DNA of 64,000 nt from Lentisphaerae bacterium ADurb.Bin082 (GTDB taxonomy: Bacteria > Verrucomicrobiota > Lentisphaeria > Oligosphaerales > Oligosphaeraceae), in the NCBI GenBank assembly GCA_002070945.1, contig MWEG01000111.1, positions 62,001-126,000 on the forward strand. Direction: 5' to 3'. Both the position numbers and the translations under genes were made by a program. Below the pieces are notes generated by a model, which made no database searches, was not told the origin of the DNA, and was given only the letters and a program-made list of their open reading frames with translations. Below are positions 12,894-64,000 of the stretch, one piece after another (the first letter of the stretch is position 1; every line of letters starts with the position of its first letter).

Positions 12894-12930
12894 CCACCGT
12901 CCACTACCGTCCATTGTCCACTGTCCACTA
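12894..12930. repeat. GTCCACT-type short tandem repeat
   Basis: Degenerate tandem copies of a roughly 7-base unit, CCGTCCA/TGTCCAC, in the gap between the GNAT gene and tRNA-Thr. The complementary GTGGAC unit recurs at 47339-47373. Confidence 0.7.
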
Positions 12931-13031
12931 AAGCGCCTTACCCTGGGCGCCTGACGCCGCAACTTGTCGGAACTCCAAAGTATCAATGAGTGACCGATTA
13001 CTGCGCCCTGCTCATTCTCAGCTATCCTGAG

Positions 13032-15696: not shown

Positions 15697-16165
15697 GTTA
15701 ATATGCGAAATTTTGGGTAATGTGCGATATCTTGTGATAAAATGAGAGACTTGACGCAGGGGTTGTGCTGGCAGACGTCCGGTAGTGCCCTACGGGGCAC
15801 CACTTTAGGGGGCATGCCTCCCCCAGGCTGAAGCCTGGGGTTAAGCATAGTTAAGTACCTACGGCGCAAAAGAATGTGATTTTAAGCATGGTGCATCTAT
15901 CCCGGCTGGAAGCCTGTGGAAGCCCGTGTAAGACACGTGTCGAAAGCACCACCGTCTGCCTACGTCCGCAGCAGCAGAGCTGCAAAAGCCCCAACGGGGC
16001 GCGACATACCAGCCCAGGGCAAGCGAAGCCCGCCAGGGGCGAGCGACGCCCTGGGTGAGAAGGCATATAATTTTGAGCCCTGAAAGGGCGAGACAAAAAT
16101 GCCGCTGTGGCTAAAAGACAACATAAAGGCATGCAAGTATTCATCACAAAATTTCGCACATTGTC
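15697..16165. mobile_element. MITE-like element, copy A (ends and core shared with copy B)
   Basis: The left end GTTAATATGCGAAATTTTG is mirrored at the right end, where CAAAATTTCGCA (16147-16158) is the exact complement of 15704-15715. A second end-like motif lies at 15717. A core of about 97 bases (15772-15868) containing hairpins such as GTGCCCTACGGGGCAC occurs in opposite orientation at 62601-62696 in copy B. The right half (about 15890-16130) holds further palindromes, such as GCCCCAACGGGGC and AGCCCTGAAAGGGC, that are absent from copy B. No transposase is encoded, and I found no flanking duplication. Short open frames inside it are not genes. Confidence 0.65.
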
Positions 16166-23169: not shown

Positions 23170-23635
23170 GGGTTTTCTCCTGAAAGTGAAGGTGAAGTTA
23201 CTTGAGAATAACGAGTTTTCTATAAAATGGACACAACGATATTAAAACACAAAATCGATTATCCCTGAACGCATCTACTGTTATTACTTCCATGCAAATC
23301 AATTGCCCCCAAATATCGTCCATCATTGATGAATGGATGTTCCGATTTTTTAACATAAGTTACATTTTAAAATCCTTTTGTCAAATTGCAATTGTAATTA
23401 TTGTTAATGTGTGAAGTTTTGTGGTAATGTGTACGGGGGTAGTCCACCCTATGCGAAAGGCGGAAATTGTCCGGGCGGGAAATAATTTTGTTGGGGTGTC
23501 ATTTGACATTGCTGGCTTGTCCATGACATTGAACAGAGAGTTTTTGCCGACGCCGCGCTTCCCTCGTCAGTCACTTTATGCAGAGGCGAAGTCGGCGTGT
23601 GTATCCTCAACCACGCTTAAAGGAGTAATGACACC
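23170..23635. other. Divergent AT-rich regulatory region
   Basis: 466 bases between two divergent carbohydrate-related genes; far more AT-rich than its surroundings (especially 23340-23410). A reverse-strand TTGACA (23379-23384) with TAACTT 16 bases away could be a promoter for the minus gene. A motif matching the ends of the window's MITE-like elements lies at 23403-23430. No gene is supported here. Confidence 0.5.
23403..23430 (+). repeat. Solo copy of the MITE end motif or a regulatory site
   Basis: GTTAATGTGTGAAGTTTTG then TGGTAATG closely matches the ends at 15697 (including its following GGTAATGTG) and at 62426. No second end or core is found nearby. It could be a relic end or a protein-binding site shared by several promoters. 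Confidence 0.5.
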
Positions 23636-61230: not shown

Positions 61231-62361
61231 TCACAGCCATTTCCGGAATTGACGCAGCCGATGGAAAGTGATTCGATTCGAATCATGGAAATTATGCGCT
61301 CCGCGCCAGGCCATCCTGGTCGCGAAAATGATGTCTTCTTCGCCGTCAAAGTGCCAGTCGACGTACTGAAAGCCAGTCAGCCGCGCAGAATCCTGCGGGA
61401 CAAGCCCAGACTCATCCCGCAAAATCTCCTTGACGACTTGCCAGTGCCGCAAATCCTCTGATTTGGCCAGCGACAGCACATTGCGGCAGCCGCTCTGATA
61501 AGGCGTCTTTTGCAACGGCGCGTTGACTAAGCTGAGATAGTAGCCGGTCCGCTCGTCACGCCGAATCACAAACTTGGTCTTGCCGCCCGGCATCTCGATG
61601 AATCCCTGGCTGGGATCAAACGAAATCTCCCTGCCGCCGTCCGACACCCGAACCATGGCGCCGACGTCGTAGCGCGGCGCCGTATGGACGCGCAGGATGT
61701 TCCAGATTTGTCCTTTCGGGTCCAGGCAGACATTGCCTTCCAGCCAGCCGCCTGAACCCTCGTCTTCCCATTCTTTGGGCAGCCAGTCATGCTGGAAAAG
61801 GATTTTATTGCTCATCGTCCAGCTGGCGGCGTCAAGCAAGTCAGAATCCTGGTCAGCGGAAATCACAAAAGCCTTGAAGCCGCTGCCCCACTTGGCGTCC
61901 CAGCATTCTTCCATCCCCCGGTAAATGCGATGGCGGTGGAACAGAAACGGCACCGACGAGGTATGATAATTAGGATTATCGTGATAATAGCCGCCCTTGA
62001 ACAGCAGGCCATTGCTGCCATTCGTCGGATGCGACCAAGTAAAGCCCCCGTCATCGCTGCGCCGGATGACAATAGAGCCATATTGCTGGGTGACGCCGAA
62101 CAGGTAAAGGACACCGCGGTGTATAAACAGGGTGCTCCAATAGGCGTTCATCACATGAGTGACGTTCTGCCAACTCTGGCCGTTGTCCTCGGAGCGATAG
62201 ACGCTGGCCAGCGCTTCCTCAGACTCATGATTGCGCGGGCAGCCTGGACCAAAATAATCGTGCGTTGCCACTAAGACGCCGTCTTCCAGCCGAATGATGC
62301 TCGGACTGCCTAAGTAGGTGCGCGTCTGTTCCGGCTGATACTTGATCTCACTGTAAAGCAT
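61231..62361 (-). CDS. Sialidase-like beta-propeller (BNR/Asp-box)
   Basis: 376 residues, no signal peptide. Two clear Asp boxes, S57-E-D-N-G-Q-S-W64 and S102-D-D-G-G-F-T-W109, mark a six-bladed sialidase-type propeller. An arginine near the N-terminus (Arg24 in SIIRLEDG) could belong to the arginine triad, and RDERTGYYLSL lies in the C-terminal half. It may be a cytoplasmic exo-sialidase or a related lyase/phosphorylase; catalytic residues cannot be assigned safely. A MITE-like element with target duplication starts 57 bases upstream. Confidence 0.72.
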   Translation of the reverse strand: MLYSEIKYQPEQTRTYLGSPSIIRLEDGVLVATHDYFGPGCPRNHESEEALASVYRSEDNGQSWQNVTHVMNAYWSTLFIHRGVLYLFGVTQQYGSIVIRRSDDGGFTWSHPTNGSNGLLFKGGYYHDNPNYHTSSVPFLFHRHRIYRGMEECWDAKWGSGFKAFVISADQDSDLLDAASWTMSNKILFQHDWLPKEWEDEGSGGWLEGNVCLDPKGQIWNILRVHTAPRYDVGAMVRVSDGGREISFDPSQGFIEMPGGKTKFVIRRDERTGYYLSLVNAPLQKTPYQSGCRNVLSLAKSEDLRHWQVVKEILRDESGLVPQDSARLTGFQYVDWHFDGEEDIIFATRMAWRGAHNFHDSNRITFHRLRQFRKWL

Positions 62362-62417: not shown

Positions 62418-62425
62418 GAATTTTA
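62418..62425. repeat. Target-site duplication, left
   Basis: GAATTTTA directly outside the left end of the element at 62426-62753; an identical copy is at 62754-62761. Confidence 0.85.
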
Positions 62426-62753
62426 GTTAATGTGCGAAGTTTTGTGATGAATGCTTGTAAACCTTCAGACTGGCGTAGGTGGGATTGGTCTCATGCGCAG
62501 GCTATGATTCCTGCGTTCGCTGTCAAATATCGCTTCTGAAGCCATATATTGCCGATTTCATAGTGAGTTGATTATCAGTCAATTCTTCTCGCATGTATTC
62601 TGCGCCGTAGGCGCTTAACCATGCTTAACCCGGCTCCAGCCTGGGGGTGGGTAGCCCCCGAAAGTGGTGCCCCGTAGGGGCACTACCGGACGTCTGACAA
62701 ACAGAACCGCTGTGCCAAATCTCCCTTTCTGTCACAATATCTCGCACATTAAC
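62426..62753. mobile_element. MITE-like element, copy B (328 bp)
   Basis: The ends are GTTAATGTGCGA (62426-62437) and its perfect complement TCGCACATTAAC (62742-62753), with partial extension of the inverted repeat inward to TTGTGA. Both sides carry the perfect 8-bp duplication GAATTTTA. There is no coding capacity. A palindrome-rich core (62601-62696) matches copy A at 15772-15868 in the opposite orientation. This is the signature of a non-autonomous transposable element mobilised in trans. It lies upstream of a sialidase-like gene. Confidence 0.82.
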
Positions 62754-62761
62754 GAATTTTA
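62754..62761. repeat. Target-site duplication, right
   Basis: GAATTTTA, identical to 62418-62425. Confidence 0.85.
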
Positions 62762-63486
62762 AGGTAGGAAACGGCGTCCAGACAAAAAATGAAAAGCGCC
62801 CTCCCCTCATCATTTTCAAGATGCTTAACGCCGCTGGCAAATCGTGCATTAAAGTAATCCAAGTATAGCAAAAAACCACCCGCAACGCTGACCTCTTCCC
62901 AAGGCGGATGTCATCGGTCACCGGTTGAACATTGCGCCGTAGGACGCGCCCCCTCTCGTCTTATCTCATTCAGGTTCCTGTAACTCTTTGGGTCGCACAC
63001 GGGTGCCATTTCTGATGATGGAAAGCATTATGCCAGCGTGCAAGCAAAATCATGCACAAGCACAAAATGCCTATGATTCTTCTGAAAACCGCTTGTAAAA
63101 GAGTGCGCAACGGCCTATTTTTTCACCGGTTCCAGAAATCAGACCCCACCCACCCAAGGGGGGACCTCCCACCCTGAATTTTGCCGCGCGCGCGAGATGC
63201 GAGCTTAATATCAATGGCTGACTCATTACAGGCGGATGGCGTTTTCAGCGAGGTGCTGTCAATGCCTGCCGACGATACACCTGAAACTCGCCTTGTTGCC
63301 CTGATTTCCGGCAGATGCGCCCTAAAAACGGGCATCGCGCAACCTTTTCAGCGGCCCTTCCCACCTTTGAAGCAACCTCTAGCGTCATGGTATCAAACTT
63401 GCTTGTAAAACAAGTATTTTCCGGCTATCTTTGCCGAGCCTGCGCCTGATGAAACCCATCTCACCGCCCTTCTTTTCAACATTGCC
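62762..63486. other. Long intergenic region without a supported gene
   Basis: 725 bases between the MITE-like element and the ABC transporter gene. Short open frames (for example plus 63181-63408 and minus 62625-62921) have no ribosome binding sites or domains, and the second runs through the element. A G-rich run on the minus strand lies at 63144-63174. No tRNA or riboswitch was seen. Confidence 0.5.
63403..63431 (+). promoter_or_regulatory. Candidate promoter of the ABC transporter gene
   Basis: TTGTAA at 63403 and TATCTT at 63426 with a 17-base spacing, about 56 bases before the ATG at 63487. Judged by eye; the match to consensus is moderate. Confidence 0.3.
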
Positions 63487-64000
63487 ATGTCACAACCCAA
63501 CGATCAATCCAGCCTGCCCCTTGTCGTCGAGAACCTCCACAAGCGATTTCGCCAGGAAGGCGTTGACATCCCAGCGCTCAACGGTGTCTCGCTGGCAGTG
63601 CCTGACGGCGATTTCGTCGCTATCATGGGACCGAGCGGTTCCGGCAAAAGCACGCTGCTCCACGTCATTGCCGGGCTGACCAACGCCACTTCCGGCCAGG
63701 TGCGCATTCACGGCATGGACATCGCCACGCTTTCAGACCGTCGCATGACAGCCCTTCGCCGCCGCCAGATTGGCGTTGTCTTCCAGGCTTTCAACCTGAT
63801 CCCAACGCTCTCAGTGCAAGACAACATCACCCTGCCGGTGCAAGCCGACGGCCGAGCCTGCGATCTTGGCCGACTGCTGCGCATCACGTCTCTTCTCGAC
63901 ATTGATGACAAGCTCGACCGACGCCCCGGAAAACTGAGCGGCGGCGAACAGCAGCGCGTTGCCATCGCCCGGGCTTTGCTCCCAGCACCAGCCATCATCC
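63487..64000 (+). CDS. ABC transporter ATPase, LolD/MacB type, N-terminal part
   Basis: The first 171 residues are present; the gene continues beyond the window. Walker A GPSGSGKST (48-56), Q-loop VFQAFNLIPTLSV (98-110) and signature LSGGEQQR (150-157) identify an ABC ATPase. The Q-loop form FNLIPTL and the spacing are those of the LolD/MacB/FtsE group, which energises lipoprotein release, efflux or envelope remodelling through FtsX-like permeases. The partner permease would be expected downstream. No clear ribosome binding site precedes the ATG. Confidence 0.93.
   Translation, partial: MSQPNDQSSLPLVVENLHKRFRQEGVDIPALNGVSLAVPDGDFVAIMGPSGSGKSTLLHVIAGLTNATSGQVRIHGMDIATLSDRRMTALRRRQIGVVFQAFNLIPTLSVQDNITLPVQADGRACDLGRLLRITSLLDIDDKLDRRPGKLSGGEQQRVAIARALLPAPAII

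Follow-up and report, generated by a model that had tools for sequence, protein, structure and literature searches.

Structure and genomic context of the element

The window analysed here is a stretch of 64,000 nucleotides from contig MWEG01000111.1 of Lentisphaerae bacterium ADurb.Bin082, to which all coordinates refer unless a contig or locus is named. A 328-bp element is located in this window between two divergent genes. The first gene lies on the minus strand with its start at 62361, 56 bp away from the element, and gave a weak match to BNR repeats that remained below the Pfam cut-off, and the second gene starts at 63487 and encodes the ATPase of an ABC transporter. The features of the locus are as follows.

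62418-62425, plus strand: left 8-bp target duplication (TSD), GAATTTTA, from sequence reading
62426-62753, plus strand: MITE, non-autonomous, ISH6-type, 328 bp, from sequence reading and genome matches
62426-62447, plus strand: left terminal inverted repeat (TIR), perfect over 12 bp, 19/22 over 22 bp
62426-62459, plus strand: 34 bp common to the MITE and the transposase-3' end of the parent insertion sequence (IS), 94%
62601-62686, plus strand: three-hairpin module with short loops, also present outside ISH6 ends in the host genome and in same-family relatives
62602-62614, plus strand: hairpin 1, GCGCC-GTA-GGCGC
62629-62646, plus strand: hairpin 2, CCCCAGGCT..AGCCTGGGG, two bases missing in the window copy
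62664-62686, plus strand: hairpin 3, GTGGTGCCCC-GTA-GGGGCACTAC, copies differing by compensatory changes
62713-62753, plus strand: 41 bp common to the MITE and the transposase-5' end of the parent IS, 78%
62732-62753, minus strand: right TIR
62754-62761, plus strand: right 8-bp target duplication, GAATTTTA

The original prediction had described 328 bp of non-coding DNA that end in perfect 12-bp TIRs and are flanked on either side by a perfect direct repeat of 8 bp, and direct reading of the sequence agreed with this description in each respect. The element starts with GTTAATGTGCGA and ends with TCGCACATTAAC, the TIRs are identical at 12/12 positions, GAATTTTA is present at both flanks, and the longest open reading frame comprises 42 aa. 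With the duplications counted in, the inverted arms extend over 32 nt at 78%. The combination of a perfect 12-bp TIR and a perfect 8-bp flanking repeat within at most 1 kb is expected by chance about 9e-5 times in the window. The DNA fold of the element was better than that of shuffled sequences (z -4.05), none of the 100 shuffles being equally good, and a comparison of the element with Rfam at the gathering threshold yielded no match. The strong hairpins predicted for the interior are real, although they are mostly confined to the right half of the element (62602-62686). Just downstream, positions 62910-63222 hold a different interspersed repeat with a length of about 312 bp; copies of this repeat were detected with 76-87% identity at other loci of the host genome and, in large number, with 74-79% identity in the genome G002 of the same genus.

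The MITE family in the host genome

The genome to which the window belongs (G000) comprises 5.11 Mb in 126 contigs and is 91.5% complete. The search of the whole genome for other copies, as suggested by the original prediction, resulted in at least 53 matches to the element, with 40 of the 228 candidates scored; copy counts were deduced from this sequence search along with sampled loci. The 22-bp end patterns matched G000 116 times for the left and 124 times for the right end, the two sets overlapping, and the reversed control patterns yielded no matches in this genome. Perfect, AT-rich 8-bp TSDs were identified at several copies (AAATTTTT, AGATTTTT, AAATTATA, CAAGGTTT, CAAAAATC, GATATTTT, CATAATTC and others), and the dispersed copies accordingly carry independent target duplications. 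The copies can be divided into two size types of about 327 bp and about 400-453 bp, which have the ends and the right half in common and differ in the left interior.

Further sequences of this kind were observed in the window. Positions 15716-16165 are occupied by another MITE of the ISH6 type, which belongs to the longer kind (about 450 bp) and has degenerate ends and octamers that do not match; a lone end motif GTTAATATGCGA is present at 15697, seven bases ahead of this MITE. A solitary ISH6-type left end, GTTAATGTGTGAAGTTTTGTGG, was detected at 23403-23424 with no partner seen nearby. Modules of the MITE interior also stand alone, as exemplified by positions 12899-12998, about 100 bp that match interior sequence of the 453-bp MITE (78-83%) and beside which no ISH6 ends were detected. 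In G008, a genome from another genus of the same family, ISH6-type MITEs of about 390-440 bp were identified (L127-L130, L133-L135 and L139), most of which contain the hairpin module twice, as an inverted pair.

The parent ISH6-type insertion sequence

The original prediction stated that the transposase recognising these ends is not located in the window and proposed a search for a larger transposon with the same ends. The search identified an IS of about 1.45 kb elsewhere in G000, which is bounded by the ends of the MITE, lost its middle to assembly collapse and specifies an ISH6-family transposase that is complete in relatives. Four contigs (C16, C26, C117 and C124) start with an identical sequence of 401 bp, GTTAATGTGCGAAGTTTTGTGATGAACACTTGTAG..., that encodes the C-terminus of the transposase on the opposite strand, with the stop codon inside the TIR. 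At the opposite end of the IS, contigs (C89 and C107) break 75 or 217 bp inside the element, in a region coding for the N-terminus. The breakage of contigs at equal distance inside both ends corresponds to the way in which an assembler treats an identical multicopy element. Six split IS copies were re-paired across contigs by means of identical junction octamers.

C13/C115: octamer GTTTTTTC
C26/C107: octamer CAAAAGGA
C117/C44: octamer TAACATTT
C124/C126: octamer AATAATCG
C16/C89: octamer ACGAGATT
C41 with C55 or C15: octamer GATTTTTC

Since the collapsed assembly of G000 contains no complete transposase gene, the parent is known in this genome only from the matching ends and from relatives. 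A complete relative (L082) was found in a genome of the same family (G009, Lentisphaerota); it comprises 1450 bp, has both ends perfect and contains a frame of 459 aa. The deduced protein belongs to the ISH6 family according to NCBIfam model NF041731 (E=8.8e-138, 459.5 bits, cut-off 240) and displays a Mutator-like D-D-(C/D)xxH-E signature (MADG, CDGE, CQWH and MVER; residues assigned by motif only). The transposase fragments of G000 match the C-terminal part of NF041731 at 121-146 bits and gave no informative match in Pfam, so that the placement in the ISH6 family is based on the complete relative and the NCBIfam model. More distant complete copies in the class, with lengths of 1450-1451 bp, are flanked by the perfect 8-bp TSDs AATTATTA, GAACCTCC and CATGGATA. 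No relative was detected in the viral contigs searched with the transposase fragment. Between the common ends of 34 and 41 bp, the MITE and the IS have nothing convincing in common.

An ISH6-type IS copy on contig C16 (L056, positions 1-830) is broken at CAAGGATG, and the two junctions (68-75 and 804-811) carry this octamer in opposite orientations. The pattern may have been left by an intramolecular insertion with inversion or, alternatively, may represent an assembly artefact.

Empty sites in related genomes

The flank pairs of several copies were joined by one octamer and compared with the genomes G001 and G002 of the same genus. The flanks of the copies on C24 (CAAAAATC), C53 (GAATTTTG/A) and C83 (AAATTATA) overlap by exactly eight bases on the G002 allele, and the octamer is therefore single and the element absent. 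The G002 junction corresponding to the copy on C50 (GATATTTT) likewise aligns through a single octamer, G002 carrying another insertion further upstream. The empty allele that the original prediction expected in related strains was thus observed for four other copies, whereas the window's own site provided a partial answer. In both G001 and G002 the neighbouring gene is conserved (85-91% identity) and the element is missing; the alignment with G002 ends 16 bases short of the site, and G001 shows GAACTTGA at the position of the octamer. Of 5000 random stretches of each length, 122 of the 30-mers and 372 of the 60-mers (2-7%) matched as well as the right flank of G001. G001 was accordingly rejected as a proven empty allele, its right flank being no better than random stretches, and with the right flank too diverged in both genomes the data support the absence of the element at this site and leave the precise empty allele unproven. 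Apparent empty sites within repeats of G000 itself (CATAATTC copies) were also rejected as proof, as they are located in a 7-bp tandem repeat.

The claim that the window element is a non-autonomous element that has transposed is borne out by the multicopy family, the TSDs, the empty sites of sister copies and the IS with the same ends. The element is almost certainly an ISH6-family MITE, presumably mobilised in trans by the DDE transposase of an ISH6-type IS. As suggested by the shared ends, the MITE would have kept about 34 bp on the left and about 41 bp on the right that are recognised by such a transposase, and hairpin-rich DNA without coding capacity would stand where the parent has its transposase gene. 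The protein would be supplied by the copies of about 1.45 kb elsewhere in G000; it is predicted to bind both MITE ends and to insert the MITE in trans at a palindromic, AT-rich octamer of the type NAAWWTTN, and repair of the presumed 8-bp stagger would then generate the direct repeat GAATTTTA. The identity of the IS ends suggests recent movement, and the elements may still be active at present.

The three-hairpin module and alternative explanations

A 27-bp signature of the hairpin module was detected 133 times in G000, 106 times in G002 and 94 times in G008. Two genomes representing another genus of the family contained it 38 and 69 times, and the few genomes beyond the family that were included in the search lacked it. 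Many module copies in G000 and G008 are not flanked by ISH6 ends. Pairing in the hairpins amounts to 94% over 70 distinct copies, and changes on both sides of the hairpins numbered 32 versus 7.2 in shuffles, with far lower values in slid controls; since the module copies are related, the number of independent both-side changes is smaller than 32. With its occurrence outside ISH6 ends and its compensatory changes, the module looks like an older repeat that was captured by, or exchanged between, elements and that is under some pressure to stay palindromic. Another repeat family of G000 (L145-L154, for instance L146, 749-965) also contains this module, at a distance of about 130 bp from the conserved end GTACTACTATCCGCCAACTTCTTGTTTT, and an opposite end matching GTACTACTATCCGCCAACTTCTTGTTTT was not found in this family. 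A candidate for a second TIR-bounded element with the hairpin module, ending in GTACTACTATC, was discarded, as only one consistent end was found.

The retention of three hairpins with compensatory changes, the presence of the module far beyond ISH6 ends and the position of the element 56 bp upstream of a gene start could also be reconciled with a structured repeat that is useful to the host, acting for instance as a terminator, as an RNA or as a binding site; the hairpin module would then be the functional portion, and the resemblance to a transposon would be superficial. This explanation is improbable, as perfect TSDs, empty sites and a transposase gene between the same ends indicate movement as a transposon, and the Rfam search likewise gave it no support; a useful passenger is possible, yet it would not replace the transposon reading. 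Hairpin 3 begins with GTAG on the minus strand, like the GTAG-tagged REPs (PMC3733652), and a palindrome of the REP/RAYT type spread by a Y1 tyrosine transposase was considered accordingly. A search of G000 with PF01797 (Y1 transposase) yielded no matches, and the control search was positive in five of 14 known genomes. The element moreover has long TIRs and 8-bp TSDs, which Y1 elements are not known to make, and an origin of this type is very unlikely. Derivation from another IS family with 8-9-bp duplications (IS256, ISLre2 or ISKra4) is very unlikely, as the weak similarity of the parent transposase to these related Mutator-like families amounts to 29-64 bits (cut-offs 150-205), whereas the ISH6 model gave 459-484 bits (cut-off 240).

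Target choice and back-to-back insertions

The derivation of the element from an ISH6-type IS can also be considered with respect to the target site. A sequence logo of 122 distinct junctions yielded the octamer NAAWWTTN beside the element ends, with 84-93% A+T at positions 2-7 compared with 42% A+T in the window. This apparent preference resembles the published ISH6 target consensus AANATNTT, which was deduced from 39 junctions (PMC3942029).

In 570 kb of G000 sampled, four back-to-back pairs of element ends were detected that are exactly 8 bp apart (CAAGATTT, GATTTTTC, ACGAGATT and AAATTTTT), and no pairs were present in this sample at any other spacing up to 200 bp. If insertions were independent, the expected number of such pairs would be of the order of 0.003, an estimate based on 81 ends within the 570 kb. 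The pairs may reflect a preference of the transposase for the octamer adjoining an existing copy, or they may have been generated by some linked event. A more far-reaching and rather speculative proposal is that the ISH6-type transposase prefers the abutting octamer, leading to X-element-X-element-X arrays, and that the MITEs are carriers of a three-hairpin module which spreads separately and is passed between repeat families that are unrelated.

Comparison with known transposable elements

The cut-off of the ISH6 model was passed by 16 of the 198 genomes searched in the bacterial class. These data extend ISH6, a family described almost only from archaea in the papers searched, to the bacterial class Lentisphaeria and add MITE derivatives to it. 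No ISH6-derived MITE was found in the literature, the search leaving most subscription journals outside its scope. The less usual aspects of the element are its host, this lack of a described counterpart, the back-to-back arrangement of insertions and the shared hairpin module, the last two of which raise questions about target choice and the origin of MITE interiors. In addition, identical target octamers at contig ends provide a way to recognise transposon copies that were lost to assembly collapse.

Among the known systems, the GTAG-tagged REPs are short GC-rich palindromes that occur in high copy number and are reported to be abundant in a verrucomicrobial genome (PMC3733652). The interior hairpin module resembles them, whereas the window element has TIRs and TSDs at its boundaries, and no RAYT/Y1 transposase was found in G000. 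ISH2 of Halobacterium salinarum is a MITE that is mobilised in trans by ISH8 (PMC10264941). The window element is likewise short, lacks a transposase gene and has termini related to those of a larger IS that would move it in trans, but ISH2 belongs with the ISH8 family, generates 10-bp duplications, has an archaeal host and differs in sequence. A further known system is the ISH6 family itself (p-MULT 2; Guerillot et al. 2014, PMC3942029), which shares the NF041731 transposase, a parent of about 1450 bp, the 8-bp AT-rich target duplication and the palindromic target preference, with the difference that the window element is devoid of a transposase gene. Apart from one member from Desulfobacterium, the ISH6 elements published so far come from archaea, whereas the host described here belongs to the Lentisphaeria; the element is ordinary in kind and unusual in its host lineage.
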